DNA of 64,000 nucleotides from Candidatus Nitronauta litoralis (GTDB taxonomy: Bacteria > Nitrospinota > Nitrospinia > Nitrospinales > Nitrospinaceae): positions 744,001-808,000 of the forward strand of contig CP048685.1 in NCBI GenBank assembly GCA_015698285.1, given 5' to 3'. The number at the start of each line of letters is the position of its first letter. The first letter of the stretch is position 1. A program made the position numbers and the translations under genes. Under the pieces are notes generated by a model. It saw only the letters and a program-made list of their open reading frames with translations, was not told the origin of the DNA and did not search any database. Shown one piece after another: positions 945-21,358 of the stretch.

Positions 945-1137
945 GCTGTGGTGGGTATAGCCCTGTATCTGCAATGTTTTCAAATCCATCCCGGCATTCC
1001 GCCACCTGCATTTTTCCCGTACTCAAGATATCCCCGGCGGAATCCGAAAAAGCTAGTGGGCAAGTTCCAAAAAGCACTTCTGATTAATTATCGGGTCTCC
1101 TGTTTTTTTGTCGGCACCCGGCCTGCATTGTGACTGC

Positions 1138-5905: not shown

Positions 5906-5964
5906 TTTTCTAAAAATCCCTTTTCCTCAAGATTTTTCTGAAAAAATCCGAAAAGATACTGAAT

Positions 5965-5996
5965 TACCCTTTAGGGTAGACTCTTTTGTTTATAAT
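5965..5996 (+). promoter_or_regulatory. Possible promoter/operator ahead of the radical SAM gene
   Basis: The 144-base gap before the radical SAM gene holds a perfect inverted repeat TACCC-TTTA-GGGTA (5965-5978) followed 12 bases later by a perfect -10 hexamer TATAAT (5991-5996). No good -35 is present at 17 bases, so if it is a promoter it may need an activator binding the dyad. This is weak evidence from pattern alone. Confidence 0.3.
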
Positions 5997-6049
5997 TAAT
6001 TTAAAGGGACTTAGTGGCGGAATAATTCCCCCGCAGGTCAGGACTCGAT

Positions 6050-7855
6050 ATGAAAATCCTCGTTTGTCAGCCTCCGGGAAGATTTCCCGGTGATCGTTAC
6101 GTCTGTCCATTTCCAAGTCGCTGGACCAGTATGTTCCAGGGCTATCCGGTATTCATCTATTACCCGTATGAGCTTGCCTATCTGAGCACCCTCCTCAAAC
6201 GGGAATTCCCTGACGACTACGTCAAACTGATCGACGGCACATACCTGCGTTTCACGGCGGAGGATTATATTCAGTATCTGGACCAGGAAAAACCAGACTG
6301 GCTGATCTTCGAAGTCGATACAGTGACCTATAAAGAAAGCCTGCGTATTGCAAAGGCCATGAAAGCCAAGTACGGAACACGGGTGATCATCACAGGCCAG
6401 TACCCGACAGCCTTTCCGGAAAGTGTCATTGCAGACGGAATGGATTATGCGTGCATCGGCGAGTTCGAATATGCAGTGGTTGACATTCTGAATGGATTGG
6501 ACCCCAAAACCATTTCCGGTGTTTATCCAAACAGCTATCGCAAGGTATTGGACATCGATTCACTACCCGATCCGGAAGACGAGGATATCCGACGCATCGA
6601 CTACAGCTATTGTGGTGGACACCGCTGGACCAAATATCGCGAAATTGAAGTCCACGCTTCCCGCGGCTGCCCGTACACCTGCGATTTCTGTGTAGCGGGT
6701 ACGGTTTACTATGAAAAAGAGAACTGGCGGTTTCGTAGCCCGCAACGCATCGTAGCCGAAATAGAAAACCTGCGCCGCAAGTATCCCGAGATGGAGGGTT
6801 GCTGGTTCAACGAAGAAACCCACATCATCCGCAAAAAGGACATCATGTCGTTTTGTCAGGCACTGATTGATTCCGGGAATAACGACCTGCGCTATGAAGC
6901 GATGGCTAACCATCAACGCATCGATGAAGAAATTCTCGAGATGATCAAAAAAGCCGGTTATTACAAACTGCGACTGGGCATTGAAACCATCGACGAGGCA
7001 ACCGGGAAGAGTATTGGACGCAAAACCAAAGCTGATCGCCTGCACGAATTGCTACGCTCTGCCAAACGGCTGGGAATAGAAATTTACGGCACCTTCATGA
7101 TCGGGGCTTCCGGGTCAACACCTGAAGGCGATCGCAAGACCATCGACTACGGCAAAAAACTGATCTCGGAAGATCTGATTTCAAGCTGGCAGTGCTCCAT
7201 CTCGGTTCCTCATCCGGGCACCACCTTTCATAAGAAAGCTCAGGAGAATGGATGGCTGGCGACCAATGACCTGGAATCTTTCAACGGATCAAGCGGTACT
7301 GTGGTCAGCTACCCGAACTATTCCAGCGAGCAAATAATGGATTCCGTGCAACTAATGAGTCGTGAATTCCGCGATGCAAGGGTGCAGGAAACGGTTCGCC
7401 CCAAACGATCGCTGGCAGCTGAGAAAACCGCCATCCTGAAACAGGACAAGCCGGAAATCGACAAACTGGTTAAATCGATGAATGCCCGCTTTGAATCCGA
7501 CCCCAAAGGTGCAGCAGAAGAGGCAGAAATGATTCTTGAAAAATTTCCTCAATTACTGAGCCCAAGATATGTTCTCGGAAAAGTGGCTGTGCTGGAAGGT
7601 CAACTTCAACAGGCGCGCGAGCAGTTTGAATACGTTTACAAAACTGCGGTCGACTATGATGATGCCCTGATGTTTGGTGCCGGTGCACATTACCGACTCG
7701 GTATGATCTGCATTGAAGAAGACAAACGCGACGAAGCGTTGCAGCATTTCAAAATGTGCATGCACCTGAGTCCCGACCACCAGGAAGCAAGAAAGCAATA
7801 CTGGCAATTGATTCCTGACACCATACCCGAAGCCGAACCGGCTGTGGTTTCCTGA
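6050..7855 (+). CDS. B12-binding-domain radical SAM protein with C-terminal TPR
   Basis: 601 residues. The N-terminal ~150 residues look like a cobalamin-binding Rossmann domain (MKILVCQPPG, then IITGQYPTAFPE and YACIGEFE). The SAM-cluster motif CPYTCDFC (CX3CX2C) lies at about residues 206-213, followed by a GxETxDxxTGKSIGRK region typical of the B12 radical SAM (class B methylase-type) superfamily. These enzymes methylate unactivated carbons or do other radical chemistry on sugars, lipids and natural products. Residues ~470-590 form TPR-like helices ending in HYRLGMI...CMHLSPDH, resembling the tails of the neighbouring glycosyltransferases. It is followed 23 bases later by a GT2 gene. Substrate unknown. 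Confidence 0.85.
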   Translation: MKILVCQPPGRFPGDRYVCPFPSRWTSMFQGYPVFIYYPYELAYLSTLLKREFPDDYVKLIDGTYLRFTAEDYIQYLDQEKPDWLIFEVDTVTYKESLRIAKAMKAKYGTRVIITGQYPTAFPESVIADGMDYACIGEFEYAVVDILNGLDPKTISGVYPNSYRKVLDIDSLPDPEDEDIRRIDYSYCGGHRWTKYREIEVHASRGCPYTCDFCVAGTVYYEKENWRFRSPQRIVAEIENLRRKYPEMEGCWFNEETHIIRKKDIMSFCQALIDSGNNDLRYEAMANHQRIDEEILEMIKKAGYYKLRLGIETIDEATGKSIGRKTKADRLHELLRSAKRLGIEIYGTFMIGASGSTPEGDRKTIDYGKKLISEDLISSWQCSISVPHPGTTFHKKAQENGWLATNDLESFNGSSGTVVSYPNYSSEQIMDSVQLMSREFRDARVQETVRPKRSLAAEKTAILKQDKPEIDKLVKSMNARFESDPKGAAEEAEMILEKFPQLLSPRYVLGKVAVLEGQLQQAREQFEYVYKTAVDYDDALMFGAGAHYRLGMICIEEDKRDEALQHFKMCMHLSPDHQEARKQYWQLIPDTIPEAEPAVVS

Positions 7856-7878: not shown

Positions 7879-9318
7879 ATGCCTGGAACCTGCATTGTTT
7901 TTTGTACCGCACGGGAAGCTGAGGTCCATCGTGCGTCTTCCCTTGCAGGAAATTCCGAAGACAATGTCCGTTTTTTCGGTCCCGATTCATCTCCGTTTAA
8001 CAATGCCGGAAAAAATAATTTTATTGGTTGGGGTGAGGGGCCCTTTACTTTGACAAAAGCCCTCCGTCATTTTTTCCGATTGAAATCATTTGCACCTTCG
8101 AAGGTGATCCTGCCACTCAACAATGAGAGTGGTGCAGGATATGGGCTGTTGCGACTGTTCGCTCTTGGACTTTCAGACCAGGCGATAGAAATACCTCCCT
8201 CTGGTAAAGAAGAAAAAACGTCCATCGGAAAAATACTATCGCAAAAGGAAATCATCTGGCACACCGGGCTGATCTGGTTTTTCGACTGTATCGCACCTGT
8301 TTTACGTTTGTGGTTGAACACAAAAGCACCTCCCTTAACCAGCAACTCAAGGCCACCAGCACAACCTGAAACCATCCAGGATTTTTACAATGAAGAGCCT
8401 CCCGAGGCTTCTATCATTATCCGGACATTCAATGAAGCTCAATACCTGGGTCAAACACTTGAAGCCATCGGCCGCCAAAAAGGTCCGACGCGGGAAATCA
8501 TCGTCATCGATTCAGGTTCTACAGACAATTCTGTAACCATTGCCTGTTCCCATTCGGTGAGGGTGTATGGAATATCGAAAGAATCGTTTCATTATTCGAG
8601 CGCTCTCAACCTTGGTGCCCGGTTGGCTCGTGGAAAATATCTGGTGAATCTCAGCGCACATGCGGTCCCTCAAACCGATACCTGGCTGGCCAAACTCATC
8701 GAACCCATGCAGACAGATGAAAACGTTGCGGGAGTCTGCGGTCGTGAAGTGCCTATAAAAGACTGGGCCAGCCCGTTTGAAAGGAAGCTTTTGCACGATA
8801 TGTTTCGATTGGAAAAAAGAGTGATGACGGAATCCTTCTTTTTCTCCAACGCCAACGCAGCCATGCGACGCGATTTGGCACTTGAAGTTCCTTTCGACGA
8901 GAACATCGACTGGGGTGAGGATCAGGTCTGGGCCCATGCGGTGCATCAACGTGGATTTAAAACCGTCTACACACCGGAAGGTCCGGTAGCGCACTCCCAC
9001 AACCTGTCCATGGTCGATTGTTTTGTTCGCACCTTAAAATTTCAACGAACACTTTTCCGGCGCATGCATCATGATCGAGCCGACATCACCAATGATGAGT
9101 TCCATTTTCACCTGCCAGCACGCGCCCTTTCGTTTAGAAGGTTTATCAGCAAAAACCGACTGATGCCGGAACTGAAAGCCTGGTTCGCCCCCTCTTTTTG
9201 TGAATATATTAATTTTATGGGCAGCGATATGGCCCACCGGGAAATAATGATCGCAAGGCGCCGGACGTCTTGTTCAGATAAAAGTTATCGGCCCAAAAAG
9301 GAGGCGGTATTGCCATGA
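7879..9318 (+). CDS. GT2-family glycosyltransferase with extra N-terminal domain
   Basis: 479 residues. A GT-A catalytic domain starts at about residue 175 with IIRTFNEAQYL, then EIIVIDSGSTDNS and a WGEDQVWAHAV acceptor/metal region, typical of inverting GT2 enzymes using NDP-sugars. The first ~170 residues are not GT2; they contain a VILPLNNESGAGYG stretch resembling phosphosugar/glycosyl-transfer accessory domains, which I cannot name securely. The ATG at 7879 has no evident ribosome site, so the start is uncertain. The stop overlaps the next start in an ATGA, indicating translational coupling. Confidence 0.82.
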   Translation: MPGTCIVFCTAREAEVHRASSLAGNSEDNVRFFGPDSSPFNNAGKNNFIGWGEGPFTLTKALRHFFRLKSFAPSKVILPLNNESGAGYGLLRLFALGLSDQAIEIPPSGKEEKTSIGKILSQKEIIWHTGLIWFFDCIAPVLRLWLNTKAPPLTSNSRPPAQPETIQDFYNEEPPEASIIIRTFNEAQYLGQTLEAIGRQKGPTREIIVIDSGSTDNSVTIACSHSVRVYGISKESFHYSSALNLGARLARGKYLVNLSAHAVPQTDTWLAKLIEPMQTDENVAGVCGREVPIKDWASPFERKLLHDMFRLEKRVMTESFFFSNANAAMRRDLALEVPFDENIDWGEDQVWAHAVHQRGFKTVYTPEGPVAHSHNLSMVDCFVRTLKFQRTLFRRMHHDRADITNDEFHFHLPARALSFRRFISKNRLMPELKAWFAPSFCEYINFMGSDMAHREIMIARRRTSCSDKSYRPKKEAVLP

Positions 9319-10265
9319 AGGTTTCGGTAATTATTCCCAACTGGAACGGCGCGCGGTTACTCGGTATGTGCCTGGACTCCCTTCTGGCATCCAGCTTCAG
9401 CGATTTTGAAACCATTGTGGTTGATAACGGATCGGAAGATGCCTCGTCTGCTTTGATTCGTGAACGCTATCCACAAGTCCATCTAATCCAGCTTGATCGA
9501 AATTATGGATTCGCCCCTGCCTGCAATGAGGGCATCCGCAATGCAAAGGGCGACTTTGTTGTATTACTCAACAACGACATCGAAGTCGAACAAGACTGGC
9601 TTCGTGAGTTGGTAGAGGGTATGAAGCGGCATCCAGATTGCCGCATGGGCGCTTCTCGTATGATGTATCGGGATGACCGCGACCAGTTCTGCAATGCTGG
9701 AGATGGATTCTTTGCCTGGGGCGCCGGTAAGTCGCGTGGCGAAGGTGAAATAGATTTTGGACAATATGATACCGAGGTTGAGGTTCCGGGCGTTTGTGCT
9801 GGCGCGGCCGTTTACAAACGCAGCCTGTTCGATGATGTCGGGTTGTTTGACGAAAGGTTTCACTCATTGGCCGAGGATGTTGATTTGAATCTTCGAGCCC
9901 GTCTTAACGGAGACAAGGCCTTTTATTTTCCAAAGGCACGGGTTTTCCATATTGGCTCAGCAACACTTGGCCGGTACAGTGACCGTTATGTGTATCAGGC
10001 ACACCGCAACGAATGGTTCGTGATGCTGAAGAATCTGCCATTGAAACATTTTCTCCGGCACCTGCCGGGTATCATCCGTTATCAAATCCGGACTACCAGC
10101 TACTTTTCTTCTCGCGGACAAGGCGGCTTGTTGTTAAAAGCCAAACTCGACGCGATCAGGCAATTTCCATCCATGTTGAAAAGCCGTAGCCGGATCCAGA
10201 ATAATAGAATCCTATCTGACTCTGGCCTGGAGAAGATCATGGAAAAAGAAAGGGAGGCCGCATGA
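9315..10265 (+). CDS. GT2-family glycosyltransferase, rhamnosyltransferase-like
   Basis: 316 residues, one compact GT-A domain. SVIIPNWNG at the N-terminus, ETIVVDNGSED, LLNNDIEVEQDWL (metal-binding DxD equivalent) and EDVDLNLRARLNG are characteristic of the WbbL/RfbF-like GT2 group, which often adds rhamnose or related sugars to surface glycans. It starts within an ATGA overlap with the upstream GT2 and ends in an ATGA overlap with the downstream radical SAM gene. Two adjacent GT2 genes suggest sequential sugar addition. The exact sugar cannot be read from sequence. Confidence 0.87.
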   Translation: MKVSVIIPNWNGARLLGMCLDSLLASSFSDFETIVVDNGSEDASSALIRERYPQVHLIQLDRNYGFAPACNEGIRNAKGDFVVLLNNDIEVEQDWLRELVEGMKRHPDCRMGASRMMYRDDRDQFCNAGDGFFAWGAGKSRGEGEIDFGQYDTEVEVPGVCAGAAVYKRSLFDDVGLFDERFHSLAEDVDLNLRARLNGDKAFYFPKARVFHIGSATLGRYSDRYVYQAHRNEWFVMLKNLPLKHFLRHLPGIIRYQIRTTSYFSSRGQGGLLLKAKLDAIRQFPSMLKSRSRIQNNRILSDSGLEKIMEKEREAA

Positions 10266-12397
10266 AGGTGACGCTTATTTATCCACCGGATCGTAACTTC
10301 CCGGGGAACCCTTATTCCAGTCTGCCGGCACTTTCATCCTGCTTAAAGGAAAAAGGCCACGACACCGCCCTGCATGATGTGAATCTGGAGGTGTTCCTCG
10401 AACTTGTGAACACGGACGTGCTGACATCACATTATGACCGGCTGAATGAACGCATGCATTATCTGGGCATCAAACACTCCCTCGAACCTGCCGAAGCGAC
10501 AGAATACCAGTCATTGGTGCAACAACTATCGATCCCCAGAGAGTGTCTGGAAAACGCACAAGCTGGTCTGGAGATAATGAAAAATGCAGAGTCGTTTTAC
10601 GAACCTGACCAGTTCAATCGTGCTTACGATGATTTGCGTTCTACTCTCAGGTTCTATTTCGGGGAGCACCCTCTCGACAATGCGGCAAATCCGGATGTCG
10701 TCAACCGGCTGATGGACCGTCTGCAGCAACCGATGGATGATCCCATTACCACTGCACTTCAAAACGGGATCATCGACACTATACTTACAGAAAAGCCCGG
10801 CCTGATTGGAATCAGCATTCCCTTTATGGTGTCTTACTGGGAAGGAATGCGTCTCGCAAAATTGTTCAAAGAAAAAGCACCGCATATTCCAATCATCATT
10901 GGCGGTGCCCTCATCGAAAATCATGAGGCGATTTTCACCGGCGATCCACGTCTGTTTGAGCTTTTTGATTTTGTCATGGTCGGAGATGGAGACCTTGCAC
11001 TTCCCAACCTTGCCACCGCTCTGGAAAACGGCAGCGACCTTAAAGAGGTGTCGAACCTTTACTATAAAGATGAAAAAGGAAACTGGGCGTTTACAGTTCA
11101 CGAACGACTGAATGATTTGAGCTCACTTCCTGCTCCGGATTTTGCCGGCATGGCTTTAACCGATTATCCTGCGCCAGAGGTGGGGGCAACGTTCCAGACC
11201 TCCCGCGGTTGTTATTACGGAAAATGCACATTCTGTTCGGAGAGTTTCCGTGAGAATTACCGTTTGAGAAAGCCGGAACGGGTATTCGATGACATGGTCC
11301 ATATTCACAACACCACCGGCATCCGTCATTTTTATTTCTGGGACTCCCTGTGTCCGCCGAGAACACTCAAGTACGTCGCCGAACAGGTTAAAGAAAAAAA
11401 TCTTCCCTTTATCTGGTTCGCAGAAACCAAGATGGAGAAGGCCTACCTTCCACCCGAGTTCATGCAGAATCTTGCAGATGGCGGCTGCCGATTCCTGCAA
11501 TTCGGGTTTGAGTCGGCCAGCCAGCGGGTACTCGATCTCATCGACAAGGACAACGACCTGAAGGAAGTGGATCAGGTTCTGGACAACATGGCCAATGCAG
11601 GAATCATGGCCTGCATGACGTGGTTTATTGGCTTCCCAACAGAGACCGAAGGCGAAGCCCGGTTGACCTTTGATTATATTCGCAGTCACGGACCCAATAT
11701 TGCTTTGTCAGCCTACTGCGGGGTCTACCATTTGTTACCAGATCAACCCCTGTTCTACCATCAGAAAAAGCTTGGCATTGAAGTTGAGCAGAATGAACAC
11801 GGAGGTTACGTTTATACCTACCTGGATGGGTCCTCTCCTTACGACAAGACCGAGTATCATCAGGCCTACGAAGCACGTTCGGACTCTAAACTGCTACATC
11901 ATGGTGGCTACCTGCTATATGCCGACCATAGCCCAGAAAAACTGGTGGAGCTTACCGGAGCCTATCGTTCCGGAACCATCGTGCGACACATTCCAGATTT
12001 AAAAAGAACCAATGTAGTATTCAATGATGCTGCAGTATTAAAACAGTTTCCTCGCGATTTCACTCAGGATTTTTCAATGCCCCCGCAACCGTTCACCCTT
12101 GTTTATCACAAGATGTCGGGTGAAATATTTCGTTTGCGAGGTCGGGAAATTTCCGCTCTTAAAAAATGTAGGGAGCCGATGACTTCGGAAAATTTACGTT
12201 CCGCGCTTGGTGTGGAATGGAACGAGATGAGTGACATCTTGACCAAGCTGTCTCACCGCGGATTGTTGCGTTTTGTGGGTCAGGTAGAACAATTTAAGAT
12301 CGAACCTGCCGCAGCGCGTTTCGCAGGCTCCGGATATCTTCTGGATGAAGTTCCTTCCAATACCATGGAAACCAAATCTGTGAGCACTTCTGCATGA
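10262..12397 (+). CDS. Second B12-binding radical SAM protein with winged-helix-like C-terminus
   Basis: 711 residues. An N-terminal cobalamin-binding-type Rossmann region includes ISIPFMVSYWEGMRLAKLF and IIIGGALIENH. The cluster motif RGCYYGKCTFC at about residues 313-325 gives CX4CX2C, a spacing seen in part of the B12 radical SAM superfamily. The C-terminal ~100 residues (EISALKKCREPMT... LTKLSHRGLLRF) look like a small winged helix, as in some natural-product-modifying members. It is ATGA-coupled to the GT2 upstream and the methyltransferase downstream. Unlike the other radical SAM genes here, it lacks an obvious TPR tail. Reaction unknown. Confidence 0.84.
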   Translation: MKVTLIYPPDRNFPGNPYSSLPALSSCLKEKGHDTALHDVNLEVFLELVNTDVLTSHYDRLNERMHYLGIKHSLEPAEATEYQSLVQQLSIPRECLENAQAGLEIMKNAESFYEPDQFNRAYDDLRSTLRFYFGEHPLDNAANPDVVNRLMDRLQQPMDDPITTALQNGIIDTILTEKPGLIGISIPFMVSYWEGMRLAKLFKEKAPHIPIIIGGALIENHEAIFTGDPRLFELFDFVMVGDGDLALPNLATALENGSDLKEVSNLYYKDEKGNWAFTVHERLNDLSSLPAPDFAGMALTDYPAPEVGATFQTSRGCYYGKCTFCSESFRENYRLRKPERVFDDMVHIHNTTGIRHFYFWDSLCPPRTLKYVAEQVKEKNLPFIWFAETKMEKAYLPPEFMQNLADGGCRFLQFGFESASQRVLDLIDKDNDLKEVDQVLDNMANAGIMACMTWFIGFPTETEGEARLTFDYIRSHGPNIALSAYCGVYHLLPDQPLFYHQKKLGIEVEQNEHGGYVYTYLDGSSPYDKTEYHQAYEARSDSKLLHHGGYLLYADHSPEKLVELTGAYRSGTIVRHIPDLKRTNVVFNDAAVLKQFPRDFTQDFSMPPQPFTLVYHKMSGEIFRLRGREISALKKCREPMTSENLRSALGVEWNEMSDILTKLSHRGLLRFVGQVEQFKIEPAAARFAGSGYLLDEVPSNTMETKSVSTSA

Positions 12398-13371
12398 ACC
12401 TGTTGCATCTATTCGAGGGAAATCAGGAGCACTATCAAAAACCGCTCTACATCTATTCGGCGCACCATTCTAAAACCCAGTTTTTCCTGAACACCATCTC
12501 TAAAGTTTACGGCTCACAAAAACTGACTGTAATCCTGCGCGGAAACTCATCTTCGCTTGACGTTCCTCAAAATATGGAAATTATTTCTCTGGACTTGAGT
12601 GAAACCACTTCCAATGAAACCCAATTTGATTTTAAAAAAGTCGTGTCGTCCGGCAGTTTTGACAGTCTGCTGATCCAGAATGACGAGTCCTCCGAATCCT
12701 TCGAAGTGGTCGATTTAATGCCGCTTCTCAGCATTTTTGGGGATAGCCACCGTATCGCCTTCCTCAATGCCAACTTCCAGATCATACCTGTCAATGAACT
12801 AATTGCCATATGGAAAAATTCGATTCATCTCAAGGACGCTGGTTTAACGGTGAATTGTCCTGGCTTGATGATCGGTCGAGAACTCGCTCATCTGGAAAGG
12901 CTGGCCCGAACCCGGCCTCCGTCGGACACCGTGATTGAAATCGGTCGCTATTACGGTCGGTCTACAATCGCACTAGGCCAGGGTGTTAAAAGCAGCAAAC
13001 TCGGAAAAGTAATCAGTATTGATCCTTTTTCAGCCCCGGATATTCAAGAGCGAATCAAGGCACATTGTGTTTCGCACTTTGTCGAATTGTGGGACCAGAC
13101 TTCGCGCTCCGGCTTTGAACGCTGGAGAAAAGAAAGGGCAAAATACAAAGCTGGAATGTTGTTCATCGATGGCGACCACCGTTATCCTGCCGTCATTCAG
13201 GATATTGAAATGTGGTCCAGCGTTCTGATGCCGGGAGGGATTATCGCATTACACGATTACTACGAAACCCAGCCGGATTGCCTGAAGGCACTTAATGAAA
13301 AGATAATATGGTCAGGAAATTTTGAACAAATAGAATTGAAAACCAGCCTGCTGATTGCACGCAAAAAATAA
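12394..13371 (+). CDS. Class I SAM-dependent methyltransferase (Methyltransf_24-like)
   Basis: 325 residues. SAM-binding motif I is VIEIGRYYGRST at about residues 181-190, preceded by a ~170-residue N-terminal region without recognisable motifs. FIDGDHRYPAVIQDIEMW (about 257) and a GGIIALHDYYE motif match the Methyltransf_24 and TylF-related group, which methylate oxygen atoms on sugars and natural products. The start overlaps the radical SAM stop (ATGA). It is the last gene of the rightward cluster and converges with the leftward radical SAM cassette after a 25-base gap with no clear terminator. Confidence 0.8.
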   Translation: MNLLHLFEGNQEHYQKPLYIYSAHHSKTQFFLNTISKVYGSQKLTVILRGNSSSLDVPQNMEIISLDLSETTSNETQFDFKKVVSSGSFDSLLIQNDESSESFEVVDLMPLLSIFGDSHRIAFLNANFQIIPVNELIAIWKNSIHLKDAGLTVNCPGLMIGRELAHLERLARTRPPSDTVIEIGRYYGRSTIALGQGVKSSKLGKVISIDPFSAPDIQERIKAHCVSHFVELWDQTSRSGFERWRKERAKYKAGMLFIDGDHRYPAVIQDIEMWSSVLMPGGIIALHDYYETQPDCLKALNEKIIWSGNFEQIELKTSLLIARKK

Positions 13372-13396: not shown

Positions 13397-14887
13397 TTAA
13401 GATCGAATTCGGAGAGGTGTTCTGGGTGTTCTCTCCAGATAATCCGGGGCTCCCTGAATTCGATACACCAGATAAAGGAAAGCGAAAGCTTTTTTATGCG
13501 AAAAGTTTTCGCGAATGGCATTTTCAAAACAATCGCGCGCAGCCACAAGTTCCCCTCGTATAACTTCCAGCTCTCCAAGATGAAACCACACTCCACTTCT
13601 TAAATCCTGTGGCAGATCCCTCTCCTGCAACTGGAGAAACTGCAACCTCGCCTCTTCATATCTCAAACTCTTCCGGGCTACAGAGGCCTCCTGATACTGA
13701 CGATAGATTGCGGCCGTTTCCACCTTCTCCCTGCCCATCTCTTCACGTATAGTTTGAAAGTATCGTGCAGGATGGGTTGCCAGGCACTCCTGGCAGTCCC
13801 GGGGCTGCCTCTGTTCCGGCTGACAAAACATCAGATAACGCAGGTAGCGAAAAGGGAAAGAGTTCCAGAATGCCTTCGCTCCTGCCCCGTCGGGCATATG
13901 CGGCAAATCCAGGCTACCGCAACACACTTTGGGAGGCACATCCAGTCCGCTGAATATCAGGGTATTGTCGACATAGGAGCAGGGCGTCGCTGCCTCTTCC
14001 AGTTTTCCATATTCATTAAAAGAAATTTTGAGTCCTCTCTCCCGCCAACGGTCAGACACTTCGTTAAGATAGGACCGACAGGCCTCATAGTTTTCTGCGA
14101 AAGAAGCCTCGTAAACATTTTTAACCAGACGACCTCTTGCATCCCGGTTGATTGACATAGGAAACAACACAATATGCTCCACACCGAGTGACTGCGCTCT
14201 TTCAAACAAGCCGTTCATTTGTTCGAGGTTTTCAAGATTCACCGTGATGTGCAGTTCGAGGTGTGGAGTATTTGAGTCCTGCTCCTGTTTTACCTGTTGC
14301 ACCAGTTCAATCTTTTCCCACAGGTTCCGACTGTATTCCGCTTTTCCACTGCCATGACCGACAGCGGAATTTCCTTCGAAAGATATCTGAAGGCAATCCA
14401 GCTTTCGGTCCATCAATTCTCCGAGTCGTCGACGCGTCAACCCCACTCCGCTTGTCGTCACAAGCGTGTACTTATCCATACCCTTCTCAAGAAAATCGTT
14501 AAGGTAAGGACTGTCCAGAGTTTCACCTACACCAACGAAGCACCAGTGCGTAGCCTCTTTAATCCAGGGCAGAATATCTTCCCACGATTGCGGCGATAAA
14601 AAATCACGTCCGCCATAAGGTTGGGGACTGATATGAAAACCAGCATTACACATCTCGCAGCCAATATTGCAGGTGTATGAAGGGGAGATTGCAAAATGAG
14701 TTGGATAGGGCGCAGTCAATTCGGGGAACACATTGGGGCGATGCGCCGCCTGTTTCAACAGGGTTCGTAACGGGTCCGCATTTTCTTCAAAATTGTCGAT
14801 CGCCTGTAGAGCCTCCTTGACACGATCATTCAATATCAGGTTCAGCAATTCTTTTTCGGTAATGGGCTGGGCTGGTGTTTGAAGCAT
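13397..14887 (-). CDS. Radical SAM protein with C-terminal cysteine cluster and TPR (paralogue A)
   Basis: 496 residues. SYTCNIGCEMCNAGFH holds the CX3CX2C [4Fe-4S]-SAM motif at about residues 73-80. FVGVGETLDSP and VTTSGVGLTRRR follow as in SPASM-type enzymes. Additional cysteines (CSYVDN, VCCGS, CQPEQRQPRDCQEC) at about 300-385 suggest one or two auxiliary clusters. The last ~100 residues are TPR-like (GVWFHLGELEVIRGEL). A short helical domain precedes the SAM motif. It is strongly similar along its length to the gene at 15924-17411, so the pair arose by duplication. It is third in the leftward cassette, 23 bases after the TylF-type gene. SPASM enzymes usually modify peptides, sugars or sulfatases; the substrate here is unknown. 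Confidence 0.83.
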   Translation of the reverse strand: MLQTPAQPITEKELLNLILNDRVKEALQAIDNFEENADPLRTLLKQAAHRPNVFPELTAPYPTHFAISPSYTCNIGCEMCNAGFHISPQPYGGRDFLSPQSWEDILPWIKEATHWCFVGVGETLDSPYLNDFLEKGMDKYTLVTTSGVGLTRRRLGELMDRKLDCLQISFEGNSAVGHGSGKAEYSRNLWEKIELVQQVKQEQDSNTPHLELHITVNLENLEQMNGLFERAQSLGVEHIVLFPMSINRDARGRLVKNVYEASFAENYEACRSYLNEVSDRWRERGLKISFNEYGKLEEAATPCSYVDNTLIFSGLDVPPKVCCGSLDLPHMPDGAGAKAFWNSFPFRYLRYLMFCQPEQRQPRDCQECLATHPARYFQTIREEMGREKVETAAIYRQYQEASVARKSLRYEEARLQFLQLQERDLPQDLRSGVWFHLGELEVIRGELVAARDCFENAIRENFSHKKAFAFLYLVYRIQGAPDYLERTPRTPLRIRS

Positions 14888-14910
14888 AAGTCTTTTTAAT
14901 TCCTACAACT

Positions 14911-15927
14911 CTATTGTTTGATTACAAAGGCTGCCCCATCATAACCCAAAAGAACTGCTTCGGGTTTATCCTGGAAAAAATGATCGACTGCAATACGCTC
15001 TCCGAGGGTCGCTCCAAAACTGTAATTTTGAAACATGAGGATACCACCGGGAACCATTCGCGGATAAAGCTGTTCGCACAAAAAGCGTGTCACCTCAAAC
15101 TGATCGCAGTCGACATGTACCAGGCAAAATGGACCTTCGCCTGAGGCGAGAAATGTTGTGGTCACGTCCCCGGGAATAAATCGCACGTTGTTAAAATGGC
15201 CCAGCAAATTTTTAACACGGTCCAGACTGTTCCCTGAGAAATCGTTGACATCCACCAGGTCCAACGCTGAGCTTTGGGGAATTCCATTGAAGGTGTCGTA
15301 CAAAAACAACAATTTTTCATCGAGTCCGAAGTGCTGCATGGCCTTCGCAAAAAAGTAAGCGCTGCCTCCCTGGAACACTCCAAACTCCGCCACATCACCT
15401 TCCAGTGTAGCGGCCTGCTTCAAATATTGGTAACAGCAATACCAGTTTTTTTCCTCTGTATACCAGACCGAGCCATGGCGGTTCAGTGCCTCAGTCGTTT
15501 CCTCGGCCAAAGCAGCGAATTCTAATTCGGCAAGGGGTTGCGCTTCCCGATGAACAAACAGTATCTCTTTTGCTTTGAAGGACGAAAAAGCCAACTGGCT
15601 TAAAACCCCGGTCAAGGACGGACTGTCGATCAATACAGCGACCAGATCGATTTTCGGTTCAAGATGTTCTGCATCTTCAAACGATAAAACGGCACAGGAC
15701 TTTACAGGACCAGGCTCTCCGGCCCTACGGTTGTCAATGATGCAGACGGGAACAAACCGACCGCCAAGCACTGAATAGAATTCGTTTACGAGAGATGCTG
15801 TCTGGTACGTGTATCCATAAAACGCAACCCGGGTACCGGGATGTTCACGAATGTGATCAAACAGTCTTTGCTTAAGCTGATCCAGGTTTCGAATTGCTTT
15901 TTGCTCAATGCGCTGGCCTTCATTCAT
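14911..15927 (-). CDS. TylF/MycF-type O-methyltransferase with N-terminal Rossmann-like domain
   Basis: 338 residues. The C-terminal ~210 residues contain VAEFGVFQGGSAYFFAK (SAM motif I), YDTFNGIP, and HVDCDQFEVT with the acidic metal ligands of TylF/MycF sugar O-methyltransferases. The N-terminal ~130 residues (RVAFYGYTYQTASLVNEF, CIIDNRRAGEPG) look like the nucleotide-binding PglD-N/CoA-binding type sensory fold often fused to sugar-modifying enzymes. It starts in an ATGA overlap with the upstream radical SAM gene. Position between two radical SAM paralogues suggests a three-step modification unit. Likely target is a sugar hydroxyl (inference). Confidence 0.85.
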   Translation of the reverse strand: MNEGQRIEQKAIRNLDQLKQRLFDHIREHPGTRVAFYGYTYQTASLVNEFYSVLGGRFVPVCIIDNRRAGEPGPVKSCAVLSFEDAEHLEPKIDLVAVLIDSPSLTGVLSQLAFSSFKAKEILFVHREAQPLAELEFAALAEETTEALNRHGSVWYTEEKNWYCCYQYLKQAATLEGDVAEFGVFQGGSAYFFAKAMQHFGLDEKLLFLYDTFNGIPQSSALDLVDVNDFSGNSLDRVKNLLGHFNNVRFIPGDVTTTFLASGEGPFCLVHVDCDQFEVTRFLCEQLYPRMVPGGILMFQNYSFGATLGERIAVDHFFQDKPEAVLLGYDGAAFVIKQ

Positions 15928-17411
15928 ACGAGGAGGCCTCCCGGTTTGATTTCCGGATGATAGGAAAGAGGGAATTTGTCCTGTCGTTTAGCGACCTTTG
16001 GGAGACCGGTGATGCGGGTCAACAAAGACAGATACGCCCAACCGCGCCTGTGATCGAAATTATGCTGGATACATTTCTGGATGTTGTCGAGCGCAGCTCC
16101 ATCATTGGCGCGTGCCAGTTCAATCTCAGCGAGGTGAAAATAGACCTTGCCTTTTAAGGCATCGTCATCACTCAGTTCCAACACTTCCTGCATGCGGGAC
16201 TCCGCTTCCTTCCACGAGCCCTCACGTTTTAATCGCGACCCTTCCTGATAAATAGAAACCGGGTCCATCGCTGGTGGTCTGGTATCCAACGCTTCACCGC
16301 AGGACTTGTAATATTTTCGTGTCTCAAGGATCCAGCAATCCTGGCATTCACGCGGCAACCCAGCCCGCTCGCCAACAAAATGCAGATAGCGAAAATACCG
16401 AAACGGAAATGAGTTCCAGTAATCCTCTGGCGGTGTGTCCCAAAACGTCAATGGCATCTCAATCTTGCCACAACAGATGTTGGGACCACTGGAAAGACCA
16501 TGGATCTGAATTGTGTTATCGACATAACTGCAGACCGGAGCTTTCTCATGATATTCGGGATAGGCGTTCACCTGCAGGCGCAGCCCGTTCCGGTTCCAAT
16601 GGTCAACCAGTTTTTTGAACTCCGTAGAACAACGATCGAAATCCGGGCCAAACGATTTTTCATAGAGCATGGGACTGATCTCTCCGCTGTCCTCTACCAC
16701 AGACATGGGAAGCAGCAGAATGTCTCGGATATTGCGCTCTTTTGCTTTTGCAAAAAGGTTATCAAGATCGTCCAGGTTTTCGCTGTTCACGGTAACGTTG
16801 AGACCCATCACCGGGCTTTCACTGTGCATTTCCTCTTTTACCTGGGTGACCAGGTCGATCTTGCTCCAGATATTTTTGATGTAGGTGTCCTTGCCGTCGC
16901 CATGCCCAACCGATGTTTTACCGTCGAAAGAAAAATTCAGGATCTGGACACCAGTCTCGATCATCTTCCGGATTTTTTCCCGAGTTAACGGGACACCACT
17001 GGTAGTCACGACTTTTACCGGACCATCCACGTCATCCAGAAAATCGAAGAGATGGGGAGAGTCGAGCGTTTCCCCGATTCCGACAAAGAACACGTGAGTC
17101 CCGGTACGGACCCAGGATTTGGCTTTTTCGAATTGTTCCGGCGACAGGTATTTGTAATTGGGATCCAGCTCGGTTTTATTGTGAAACCCCGTGATGCACA
17201 TTTTGCAACCAATGTTGCAGGTATATGAAGGGTTGACGACTACGTAGTCGGGTAAGTCTGCCGTCATGGAAGCCAACGGCTTTTCACAACCCAATGCCCG
17301 GTATATGAGGTCTCTCAGGATGGAATCCGGCCCACTTTCATTTTCCAGTACACACGCAGCCTCTTCCAGTTGGTCGGTCATGAGCAGATCAAGAACTTCT
17401 TGCGAGGGCAT
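15924..17411 (-). CDS. Radical SAM protein with C-terminal cysteine cluster and TPR (paralogue B)
   Basis: 495 residues, collinear with the protein at 13397-14887. SYTCNIGCKMCITGFH carries CX3CX2C at about residues 64-71; FVGIGETLDSPHLFDF and FSFDGKTSVGHGDGK are shared with the paralogue. CSYVDN, ICCGK and CQDCW provide candidate auxiliary-cluster ligands. TPR-like helices near the end (KVYFHLAEIELARANDG) complete the protein. The ATG at 17411 has a GGAG sequence a few bases upstream. It is the first gene of the leftward three-gene unit, so its promoter should lie in the 236-base gap to the NHL gene. Substrate unknown. Confidence 0.83.
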   Translation of the reverse strand: MPSQEVLDLLMTDQLEEAACVLENESGPDSILRDLIYRALGCEKPLASMTADLPDYVVVNPSYTCNIGCKMCITGFHNKTELDPNYKYLSPEQFEKAKSWVRTGTHVFFVGIGETLDSPHLFDFLDDVDGPVKVVTTSGVPLTREKIRKMIETGVQILNFSFDGKTSVGHGDGKDTYIKNIWSKIDLVTQVKEEMHSESPVMGLNVTVNSENLDDLDNLFAKAKERNIRDILLLPMSVVEDSGEISPMLYEKSFGPDFDRCSTEFKKLVDHWNRNGLRLQVNAYPEYHEKAPVCSYVDNTIQIHGLSSGPNICCGKIEMPLTFWDTPPEDYWNSFPFRYFRYLHFVGERAGLPRECQDCWILETRKYYKSCGEALDTRPPAMDPVSIYQEGSRLKREGSWKEAESRMQEVLELSDDDALKGKVYFHLAEIELARANDGAALDNIQKCIQHNFDHRRGWAYLSLLTRITGLPKVAKRQDKFPLSYHPEIKPGGLLV

Positions 17412-17647
17412 TGCGGGTCTCCGGATACAGGCTATTGTCAGTTTTGGCGAGGGCCTTTATCTCCTTAAGGACAAAGGACCCTCAATTGACTTTATCGACA
17501 TAAAAATGGGGAGACTTTAGGGGCGCAGGGGGCCTTGAACAGATAAACCCAGAGGGAAAACAAGACTTCCTGAGGATTGTATAACATTTTGAATTATGAT
17601 TAAATAACCGGTCAGCGCCGCAAAATTAACCGGCCTGCCCCCATCCT

Positions 17648-20600
17648 ATGACCCATCCCTCAAAACGTCTCAAAAATCTGTCGCCGGAAGAAATCGCTAC
17701 CCTCTTTTTGAGCGAATTCGCGTCCAGCACCACCTCCAAAGAGGCACGTGCTTTTCTGGGCGCGTTTCGGGAAAAAGTTTCGGCTTCCGATTTTCCTCCA
17801 GAGCGAATGGACGATGCAAAGAAAGTTTTAAAATCCCTCAATGATCTGTTTGTGGTCGAAACGCCCGAACCGTTTTGCCGTAAAGTTGAAGGTGGTCTCA
17901 AACCTTCTCCGCCCTCGGGAATGACTTGGGCTCCTGATGGAGGCCTGATCATTGCGGATGACTTCAACCACCGTATCCAGGTTTACGATGCGAACCACAG
18001 CCTCAAAATTCAGTTTGGCTCTAAAGGGAAAAATCCGGGCGAGTTTCAATATCCCAAAGGCATTGCACTGGACCCGGCGGGCCATCTTTATGTAGCCGAC
18101 GGATGGAACCACCGCGTCCAGAAATTTGATCTCGAAGGAAATTTTATCGGCGCGTTCGGCGAATTTGGTGAAGGCCCTGGCCAGATGAATGAGCCCTGGG
18201 ATGTGCTGGTGGATTCTACCGGACGCATAGTGGTGGTGGAACGCTACAACCATCGTCTTCAGTTTTTTGATTCGGATGGCAATTCACTGGGTTGGACCGG
18301 ACAACGCGCAACTGTGTTCGAAGATCAGCTGGCGTTCATTTATGAAACATCCGCGGCATTGGCACCGCGTCCGGCGCTGGAGTTTCCCACCTGCCTGGAC
18401 GAAGATTCTCTCGGCAATTTTTTCCTCACAGACAGCGCCAATCATAGAATTCTGAAGTTTGACAGTGAATGGAATCTAATAAAAAGTTTTGGCAGTCAGG
18501 GAGATCGTCCCGGACAATTTCAATACCCCCTGAGTTTGTCTATTGATGATGGCGGACTCCTTTACGTTGCGGATTTAAACAACAACCGCATCCAGAAGTT
18601 TACCGGAGAAGGGGTTTTCATTGAAGCTTTCTCCGAAGGCCAGGGCGGCGCAGCATTAAAAATGCCAGGACTGGTCCTTGCAGGGAAAGACGGAGCGCTT
18701 GTGATCGCACTCACTCTTGATGCCACTCTACACAGGTTTCAATCCCCCACCCTCACTTCGGACAAAACCTACCAGGCCCTTTCTGCTTTACAACCCGATT
18801 CAGCCGAAATCAGACTTTCACACAGCCATCACCTTGAAGACAGTGGACATAGAGAGGCCGCTTTAAACCTGTGTCAACAGACCCTCGACCTTACGGCGAC
18901 AAAACCTCTTTCAAAAGAAGCTGAAACTCTGCCCGCCACCTGGTCGAACCTTGCCAGCAAAGTGGAATCGACTGAACCCCTGCTGGGCACTCTTATTCAG
19001 TTGGGGCTGATACACGCTAACCGGCGCGGGCACCTTCTTAAACAATTTCAGGAATGGACAGATTTTCTGCCGAGCTACTGTGGGCGGTTGGTGGAAGAGC
19101 AAAATAATATCCTGAATCACAATGAAGATCCGTTGGAGTTTGACCGCGAGCTTTTCAATATGAAAAGCCAGGACAAAGCCCTGTTCCGCAGCACCCGTCT
19201 TGCGATGGTTGAGTACCGGGAGTCGGTTGCCCGACTGGAAAACGCTTTTCGTGAAACTCTCCTGCTACCGCTTGAGGATCCGTTTCTCATACCCTTGATG
19301 GCCCAGATCAAACAGGAGTTTGAAGATGTGGGCGAACTTCTTGTGCAATTACTAAAGCGCAAGGAACAGAGTGAGACCTTCCTCATCAAAACTTTACAGG
19401 ATGAACGCGGCGCCCAGGAACACTGGGCCGAGTTTGTGGCCAACCACAGCATCAGCAACCGGATTTCCGAACAGGTGCGACAGTTGATCGTCGAGTTCCT
19501 GGCACACGCACGACTGCTCGACACGGCTGCAAAACGATTTTCGAATTGTAAACCTGTAACAGAAACCCTCCGGTCGACTTTATGGAATGAAGGCACAGTC
19601 AACCTGTTTGGACAGGTCCTGCTGGGATTTCAGGAAGACCCGGACCTTGTTGCCCATATGCAGGGCATCTTCATGGGGCTTCTCGATGGATGGAAAACGC
19701 AGACGGAAAACGACGGACCACCGGTCGCCTCCTTTTCCACCGAGGACATCGCCGCATTCGAATTTGATCGCGAAGAGTTATCGCCTGCGGAACTGACTCG
19801 ATCCTATCGCATCGGCGGTAGCCCAATTAAGATTCAACCTGATGGAGTATTGTTGGGCGGCGAGCTGTACCCTGTTGGGCTGGTTGCCGGAAAAGAAAGC
19901 GACGTGGGTGCAAAACTTGAAAGTATTCTGCAGAACCAGAGTGTCTACAGCGAAAAGATTATTGATGTCCTTAAACAGTCCGGGGATTTGCGGAAACAGA
20001 AACTGGAACTTGAAACGCGCCTGCATTCTGTCGACGTGCGGGACAAGGCCACCCCCGTGCAAATTGGCAACAACGTGCGTGTGATCGATTTCCAGATCAA
20101 TCTGCTGCAACGCATGAACCAGACGCTCGCGGTCAACGAGATGAACAACCTCGTCCGGCTGGTCATCGGGGCCGCTCTGCTGGCTTCGACGGATGCTGGC
20201 AAAGCTATACTGGCCGGACTCGACCTGCCTTCTTCGATTAATAAACTTGTTCAAAGTGAATTACAACAGTTGCATCAACTCAAACAGGAATGGAAAGAAG
20301 TGGGCCTGTTCCACGCCGGTTTGCAGGGACGGCTGGCAGGCATTTCAAATGAACTGGAACCGGAAAAGGTCAAAGAAATTGAAGCACTGCAGAACCAGGT
20401 GGCCAAATCGGATTTCAATTATCTGCAAAAAACTGCGACCGTTTACCGGCAGGCCAACCTAACCGGACTTCTGCAAAAACTGGATGACGCGTTGAATCCT
20501 GAGGCAACGGCTGAAAGCGCTCCCACTTTTTCACATTACGTTGGGAGTTTTGGTCATGCCGACAGCGGATTTTTGTATCCGTTCGGTGCGGCGCATCTGA

Positions 20601-21358
20601 AAAATGGCGAACTACTCGCCACCGATAATAAGAAACATTGCGTGATGCGGTTCTCATCCGAAGGTGTTTATCAAGGAAACTTCGGACGGTTCGGCAACGG
20701 ACCCGGCGCACTGAACTCGCCTTTTGGCATTGCGGTATCACCAGACCAGACTGTATACGTCGCTGACAACGGGAACCGGCGCATTACCGCGTTCGATGCC
20801 AACGGACATTTCCTGAACTCCCTTGGCAACACGGGACCGGAAGAAAACCGCATTGGTCTGGCCTACAGTGTTGCTGTAGATTCCGAAAACAACGTGTGGG
20901 TACCCGACACCGAAAAGAATCGCATCCAGGTGTTCTCTTCATCAGGAGAGTTGCAAAAAGTTTTTGGAAAAGAAAACGACACCGCAACTGACCTCGACAA
21001 TCCCACCGCAGTGTGTCCGCTTGATGATGGTGGATTCATAGTCAGTGACCGATCGGAATACATCCTCAAACGATTCGATAAGGACGGAGGACTGGTGACA
21101 TCGGTTGACACGACCCAAGCCACGTTGGGAGAAGCCTACAGTCTGGTTCATCACCCGGATCATGGATTGTTTGTTTCCGACACCTTCAACTGCCAGATAC
21201 TTTGTCTCGACCTGGATTTAAATGTTAAGTGGGTTCACAACCAGACCGGCCGACGCGGCGGACAGGTTTTTAGAATTGGCGGCCTCTCAATTTCAAACAA
21301 TCAACTTTTCGTCGCCGACTACGATAATATTCGCGTGCAGGTTTTTGATTTAATATAA
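17648..21358 (+). CDS. Giant NHL-repeat protein: two beta-propeller halves flanking an alpha-helical/coiled-coil core
   Basis: 1236 residues, no signal peptide or membrane segment. Residues ~85-360 contain several NHL repeats (LIIADDFNHRIQVYD, LYVADGWNHRVQKFD, VVERYNHRLQFFD, LYVADLNNNRIQKF). Residues ~360-950 are helical and charged, with long coiled-coil stretches. Residues ~960-1236 carry a second set (VYVADNGNRRITAFD, VWVPDTEKNRIQVF, LFVADYDNIRVQVFD). NHL propellers bind proteins, RNA or sugars and act as scaffolds. The gene diverges from the radical SAM cassette and follows the TPR-rich cluster, so a scaffold role for those enzymes is possible but unproven. ATG 17648 lacks a ribosome site. 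Confidence 0.85.
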   Translation: MTHPSKRLKNLSPEEIATLFLSEFASSTTSKEARAFLGAFREKVSASDFPPERMDDAKKVLKSLNDLFVVETPEPFCRKVEGGLKPSPPSGMTWAPDGGLIIADDFNHRIQVYDANHSLKIQFGSKGKNPGEFQYPKGIALDPAGHLYVADGWNHRVQKFDLEGNFIGAFGEFGEGPGQMNEPWDVLVDSTGRIVVVERYNHRLQFFDSDGNSLGWTGQRATVFEDQLAFIYETSAALAPRPALEFPTCLDEDSLGNFFLTDSANHRILKFDSEWNLIKSFGSQGDRPGQFQYPLSLSIDDGGLLYVADLNNNRIQKFTGEGVFIEAFSEGQGGAALKMPGLVLAGKDGALVIALTLDATLHRFQSPTLTSDKTYQALSALQPDSAEIRLSHSHHLEDSGHREAALNLCQQTLDLTATKPLSKEAETLPATWSNLASKVESTEPLLGTLIQLGLIHANRRGHLLKQFQEWTDFLPSYCGRLVEEQNNILNHNEDPLEFDRELFNMKSQDKALFRSTRLAMVEYRESVARLENAFRETLLLPLEDPFLIPLMAQIKQEFEDVGELLVQLLKRKEQSETFLIKTLQDERGAQEHWAEFVANHSISNRISEQVRQLIVEFLAHARLLDTAAKRFSNCKPVTETLRSTLWNEGTVNLFGQVLLGFQEDPDLVAHMQGIFMGLLDGWKTQTENDGPPVASFSTEDIAAFEFDREELSPAELTRSYRIGGSPIKIQPDGVLLGGELYPVGLVAGKESDVGAKLESILQNQSVYSEKIIDVLKQSGDLRKQKLELETRLHSVDVRDKATPVQIGNNVRVIDFQINLLQRMNQTLAVNEMNNLVRLVIGAALLASTDAGKAILAGLDLPSSINKLVQSELQQLHQLKQEWKEVGLFHAGLQGRLAGISNELEPEKVKEIEALQNQVAKSDFNYLQKTATVYRQANLTGLLQKLDDALNPEATAESAPTFSHYVGSFGHADSGFLYPFGAAHLKNGELLATDNKKHCVMRFSSEGVYQGNFGRFGNGPGALNSPFGIAVSPDQTVYVADNGNRRITAFDANGHFLNSLGNTGPEENRIGLAYSVAVDSENNVWVPDTEKNRIQVFSSSGELQKVFGKENDTATDLDNPTAVCPLDDGGFIVSDRSEYILKRFDKDGGLVTSVDTTQATLGEAYSLVHHPDHGLFVSDTFNCQILCLDLDLNVKWVHNQTGRRGGQVFRIGGLSISNNQLFVADYDNIRVQVFDLI

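Follow-up and report, generated by a model that had tools for sequence, protein, structure and literature searches.

Known enzymes of flagellin glycosylation include glycosyltransferases, methyltransferases and acyltransferases. In the described Maf/FlmG flagellin O-glycosylation islands, Maf is accompanied by variable sugar-modifying cargo, methyltransferases, TPR enzymes and a sigma-28 promoter. Flagellins are modified in the cytoplasm prior to export (PMC4065374); the TPR part of FlmG alone binds flagellin (PMC7591256), and the C-terminal TPR of Maf-1 confers flagellin specificity (PMC13317340). The flagellin lysine methylase FliB, an iron-sulfur, SAM-dependent enzyme modifying flagellin in the cytosol, carries a [4Fe-4S] cluster, and its mechanism may be a radical one (PMC8598068). 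Radical enzymes are unmentioned in a survey of enterobacterial flagellin islands, and in the open-licence literature no description of radical SAM enzymes in flagellin glycosylation or in such islands was found, earlier reports elsewhere being possible; the sole paper there with both 'flagellin glycosylation' and 'radical SAM' was an unrelated Rickettsia genome paper.

Among radical SAM enzymes, those of the twitch type (BtrN, MoaA and SkfB) have a CX3CX2C core and a four-cysteine C-terminal domain fit for one auxiliary cluster, with one cysteine pair around a hairpin and a CX2C at the end. The seven-cysteine motif of SPASM proteins is CX9-15GX4C..CX2CX5CX3C..C (PMC6231123). BlsE, the cytosylglucuronic acid decarboxylase of an antibiotic pathway, acts on a sugar substrate and likely has a second iron-sulfur cluster, for which the motif CXCX2C was proposed. 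TylF and MycF are sugar O-methyltransferases known from macrolide clusters.

The locus described here comes from the marine nitrite oxidizer 'Candidatus Nitronauta litoralis' EB (Nitrospinota; PMC8026999) and lies in a window of 64,000 bases (744001-808000 of the single 3,921,641-base contig). Two radical SAM genes and a methyltransferase gene form a cassette which, on balance, is rather likely to be a late flagellar (sigma-28) operon tailoring flagellin or its O-glycan before export.

Organization of the cassette

The cassette is one minus-strand operon composed of radical SAM A (15924-17411, 495 aa), which was recognized from the ORF list, Pfam, conserved cysteines and a structure model, a TylF-like O-methyltransferase (14911-15927, 338 aa), recognized from Pfam and solved-structure matches, and radical SAM B (13397-14887, 496 aa), a paralogue of A. 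The start of the TylF gene shares ATGA with the end of radical SAM A, and 23 bases separate it from radical SAM B, so the coordinates bear out the preliminary description of two collinear paralogues placed around TylF on one strand. The paralogy it had claimed holds as well, since A and B align end to end with 37% identity (E = 2e-120). Its observations were thus confirmed and its interpretation in part supported, while TPR-like tails, a flagellar-type promoter and a larger glycan island around the cassette had gone unremarked.

The TylF gene product matched Pfam TylF with 55 bits (cut-off 23) and the solved structures of mycinamicin III 3''-O-methyltransferase (MycF) and NovP. The methyltransferase domain covers residues 174-317, and the N-terminal ~110 residues are of another kind. 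This extra domain, and the location in a flagellar operon instead of a macrolide cluster, distinguish it from TylF and MycF.

Sequence and fold of the radical SAM proteins

Radical_SAM was the only Pfam domain in the two radical SAM proteins, with 36.2 bits for A and 28.8 bits for B against a cut-off of 29.5, so that B fell just under it, and no SPASM match was obtained. Radical SAM A starts with N-terminal helices, followed by the radical SAM core with CX3CX2C at 65-72, a putative twitch domain with C294, C313, C356 and C359, and a TPR-like tail (~384-468); B likewise ends in a TPR-like helical tail. All seven cysteines (C65/C69/C72, C294, C313, C356 and C359 in A numbering) were invariant in 20 homologues, in agreement with the CX3CX2C motif and later cysteine pairs first noticed. 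When their spacing was compared with that of SPASM and twitch enzymes, as had been suggested, the pattern was twitch-like: the SPASM seven-cysteine motif was absent from the 20 homologues, which have four conserved C-terminal cysteines only. These four are predicted to form the one-auxiliary-cluster version, a twitch domain. Radical SAM B keeps all the cysteines yet departs from family-conserved positions (e.g. H344 to M), which would fit another substrate or step.

The AlphaFold2 model of radical SAM A (pLDDT 87, pTM 0.88) matched BlsE, SkfB, anSME and MoaA in the PDB (E 1e-8 to 1e-6), and also SuiB and PqqE. The top match was BlsE (7vob), with a TM of 0.61 on target length and 14% identity. 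According to the model, A would have the core-plus-twitch fold of the radical SAM superfamily. With radical SAM A as query, phmmer found no radical SAM protein among the PDB chains, hence no sequence homology to BtrN. The proteins thus resemble BtrN, MoaA and SkfB in cysteine layout and differ from them in having no sequence match to solved radical SAM structures, an added TPR tail and a flagellar promoter; BlsE, besides its low identity and its own proposed second-cluster motif, lacks the TPR tail. In NCBIfam every score of A and B was far under cut-off, so they do not belong to an assigned family.

TPR repeats are generic interaction modules. BLAST between the TPR tails of five island proteins gave matches as weak as for any TPR, with GT1/GT39 (3e-22) and A/B as exceptions. 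The idea of a special tail shared among the island proteins was dropped, as most pairs stayed at the generic level.

The same data bear on whether the cassette could be a SPASM/twitch peptide (RiPP) or metalloenzyme maturation system. Weak NCBIfam matches to TIGR04317, a maturase of tungsten enzymes (71 and 47 bits against a cut-off of 380), and weak likeness to PqqE were seen, and SkfB and anSME were among the fold matches. Against this stand the far sub-cut-off NCBIfam scores, Radical_SAM as sole Pfam domain, the flagellar promoter described below, and the lack of a precursor. The genes are packed within 26 bases except at 17412-17647, the sole real intergenic space, where all six frames were stop-interrupted and had no coding stretch in common with G002, the second species of the genus, although the DNA was 77% identical to it over 185 bases. 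No conserved short ORF was found there, which agrees with the absence of a nearby precursor peptide stated in the preliminary description. A RiPP system is unlikely, and a peptide or metalloenzyme maturation role as a whole is very improbable.

Distribution and ancestry of the radical SAM family

Full-length members of the family were found in 15 of the 77 Nitrospinota genomes, in which the gene was mostly single and away from TylF. Outside Nitrospinota, a scan of genome contigs with two short patterns gave none. The exact order of radical SAM, TylF and radical SAM was seen only in this genome and G002. The preliminary description had taken the two copies around one methyltransferase for a conserved unit and had proposed to look for the three-gene order elsewhere; single-copy homologues unlinked to TylF, which it named as reason to abandon that reading, were largely what was found, and the arrangement is confined to two genomes of the genus.

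In the tree, A and B of the genus grouped together (99/98), separate from every other member, and the B branch was twice as long as that of A. Tandem radical SAM pairs without TylF in L090 and L098 fell in other subfamilies, so the two copies arose more than once. The possibility that A and B are an old conserved pair was rejected, because the tree separated them from the remaining tandem pairs. The L098 pair (2375-6540) is accompanied by a sulfotransferase gene and headed by a sigma-28-like site, AAAAGTTT-N12-GCCGATAG.

In G001, the third species of the genus, the same island holds TylF alone at the same place (L066 5546-6830), and neither radical SAM gene could be traced in it. This genome offers a natural 'deletion', in which the conserved sigma-28 promoter is followed by TylF only.

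A sigma-28-type promoter heads the operon

A predicted sigma-28 (FliA)-type promoter, TAAAGTCT-N12-GTCGATAA (17492-17519, minus strand), heads the cassette operon. It scored 24, and 1000 shuffles gave a mean of 16.3 and a maximum of 22. When the strict pattern TMAAGT-N14/15-YCGATAA was scanned over the whole genome (3.92 Mb), six matches were obtained, compared with one for the reversed control. Two of the six were upstream of flagellin genes, one upstream of fliD-fliS and one at this operon; the remaining two formed a divergent pair inside a flagellin/FliD-like/FlgN locus, and of these the minus-strand site had ~1 kb between it and the next same-strand gene. A scan for sigma-70 consensus promoters and terminators gave no more than chance.

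Both boxes are conserved throughout the three species of the genus, and the spacer drifts at constant length; in G002 this footprint precedes the cassette, in G001 the lone TylF gene. A looser pattern, TAAAG-N14..16-CCGATNA, preceded 11/24 GT39/TPR genes, compared with 0/285 for the other ORFs of the same loci; it was loosened after the first matches had been seen, and the p of 5e-14 is therefore optimistic. In G043 ~20 bases separate the GT39 gene from the radical SAM gene behind it, and in G036 the latter lies closely behind a SPASM gene, so it would share the upstream promoter there. No enrichment of the motif was found upstream of NHL genes or non-first radical SAM genes, which is expected if the promoter sits at the operon head. 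From these motifs, the cassette operon is predicted to be under flagellar (sigma-28) control. Two weaker sigma-28-like sites were seen in the window, TCAAGATA-N12-TCCGAAAA at 1023-1050 before the GT39/TPR gene and TCAAGATT-N12-TCCGAAAA at 5927-5954 before a B12-radical SAM/TPR gene.

The larger glycan island

The conserved unit is a larger island and not the cassette itself. At lower coordinates than the cassette, all on the plus strand, it starts with a GT39/PMT-like membrane protein (1108-3522) whose TPR tail is predicted to be cytoplasmic. Domain searches identified the following genes as a GT1-type glycosyltransferase with a TPR tail (3470-5905), a B12-binding radical SAM protein with a TPR tail (6050-7855), two GT2-type glycosyltransferases (7879-9318 and 9315-10265), a second B12-binding radical SAM protein (10262-12397) and a Methyltransf_24/CmcI-like methyltransferase (12394-13371). 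On the other side the cassette has a divergent neighbour, a giant NHL beta-propeller protein of 1236 aa (17648-21358, plus strand), which is a recurrent island partner. In most relatives the order was GT39-like/TPR membrane protein, variable cargo and giant NHL protein, usually with prfB alongside the membrane protein gene, and the GT39/TPR protein was often fused to GT2, in many of them to the counterpart of the second GT2 gene, as the loci showed. The cargo differed between genomes and consisted of twitch, SPASM or B12 radical SAM proteins, Methyltransf_24, TylF or sulfotransferase. Such surroundings support the leaning towards sugars in the preliminary description.

Several features of the island genes were observed besides. 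The NHL protein has propellers at both ends and is without membrane segment or signal, and no sigma-28-type promoter was found for its gene; it adjoined the cargo slot in 48 of the 77 Nitrospinota genomes, and beyond it a spermine-synthase-like protein (~305 aa; L047 15880-16797) recurred in many genomes. The cargo slot of G036 holds a second, canonical SPASM radical SAM protein of ~390 aa (L048 11026-12192), and proteins of similar length and N-terminus occupy this slot in some other genomes (e.g. at L067). B12 auxotrophy was reported for each of the three cultured Nitrospinae strains examined (PMC8026999), and two B12-binding radical SAM proteins sit in the island of this reported auxotroph. 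Elsewhere in the window (52200-54731), an 843-aa coiled-coil protein with a TPR C-terminus causes strong local AT and GC skew.

Co-distribution with Maf

The NHL gene, taken as the mark of the island, was compared with Maf (PF01973, counted at >100 bits) in the 77 genomes surveyed. Among those at least 90% complete, 21 had both, 11 had neither and none had one alone (21/0/0/11); restricted to flagellated genomes, the counts were 21/0/0/5. As Fisher tests treat the genomes as independent and ignore shared ancestry, the genus-level count is the safer figure: 16/16 vs 0/8. Flagellin presence alone tracked the island less well than Maf. The NHL gene and Maf occurred together in each of the 15 genomes that have the radical SAM family, and most genomes with Maf and the island were without these radical SAM genes, which are therefore accessory. 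The island of 'Ca. Nitrohelix vancouverensis' VA, for instance, comes without this family.

Physical linkage was seen in relatives. The GT39/TPR gene adjoined Maf in three genomes of a sister family (G071, G072 and G076), with a one-strand order of flgN-flgK-flgL-(methyltransferase)-Maf-GT39/TPR in G072, and in G014 (L112) the NHL gene was ~2.5 kb from cheA. The genome also encodes three strong NeuB-type synthases. Such enzymes make the sugars that Maf transfers, which fits Maf-type nonulosonic acid decoration.

These results weigh against an ordinary surface polysaccharide locus (LPS, capsule or S-layer), in which the radical SAM proteins would tailor a sugar and the flagellar link would be coincidental. 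That reading could account for the GT39-like membrane protein with its membrane topology, the GT1/GT2 enzymes and the TylF and CmcI-type methyltransferases, and also for the distance from the flagellin genes: the island is at 0.75 Mb and the main flagellin genes at 2.11 Mb, 1.3 Mb apart and not adjacent in this genome. It is improbable in view of the sigma-28 promoters found both here and ahead of GT39/TPR operons in relatives, the distribution identical to that of Maf, and the position of GT39/TPR beside flgKL-Maf in G072. The flagellar assignment of the island is well supported, and the substrate class, which the preliminary description had left simply open, is directed by promoter and comparative evidence to the flagellum. 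The island shares with Maf/FlmG islands its strict association with Maf, a changing set of sugar-modifying genes, methyltransferases, enzymes with TPR and a sigma-28 promoter; it differs in that the cargo here includes twitch, SPASM and B12 radical SAM proteins, and in being usually away from flagellin genes.

Proposed role in flagellin modification

The two radical SAM enzymes and the methyltransferase probably act on flagellin, the protein of the flagellar filament, or on the sugars it carries. The likeliest substrate would be a flagellin O-glycan laid down by the neighbouring glycosyltransferases and Maf. As twitch enzymes, A and B would abstract a substrate hydrogen by means of SAM and a [4Fe-4S] cluster, and the second electron could pass to the four-cysteine auxiliary cluster, as it does in oxidations of the BtrN type. 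The radical step might then be an oxidation or an epimerisation in which the auxiliary cluster accepts the electron, after which TylF would O-methylate a hydroxyl, while the target of radical SAM B may be another position or another sugar. Through their TPR tails, A, B, GT1 and the B12 radical SAM protein would probably be held at flagellin or at one another. This model does not account for the GT39-like membrane protein, because GT39-type enzymes are expected on the periplasmic side, whereas flagellin modification takes place in the cytoplasm.

In the main rival reading, the radical SAM enzymes would attack the flagellin polypeptide itself and oxidise, epimerise or cross-link side chains, with the TPR tail docking them and the sugar enzymes acting separately. 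It shares the flagellar promoter with the preferred reading, and draws on the TPR domain being the flagellin-binding part of FlmG, on the high rank of the peptide-modifying SkfB, anSME and SuiB in the fold search, and on FliB as a precedent for Fe-S chemistry on flagellin. TylF and the adjacent glycosyltransferases indicate sugars instead, and the top fold match, BlsE, works on a sugar nucleoside; attack on the polypeptide is accordingly rated as rather unlikely. FliB is the nearest functional precedent for tailoring of flagellin or its O-glycan by this operon, though by its description it is without a recognised domain, has eight conserved cysteines and has no twitch or TPR.

A more far-reaching proposal can be made only tentatively, namely that a flagellar-regulated class of radical SAM enzymes, docked on flagellin by TPR, acts directly on flagellin or its attached glycan before export and introduces an undescribed modification.

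Nitrospinota are the most abundant nitrite oxidizers of the ocean, and this organism is one of their cultured representatives. If the assignment is true, a large uncharacterised radical SAM family would gain a concrete and testable substrate, and the combination of sigma-28 promoter and TPR tail would mark flagellin-acting enzymes and offer a general way of finding substrates. In that case filament chemistry would also be tied to vitamin supply, through the island's two B12-type radical SAM enzymes.
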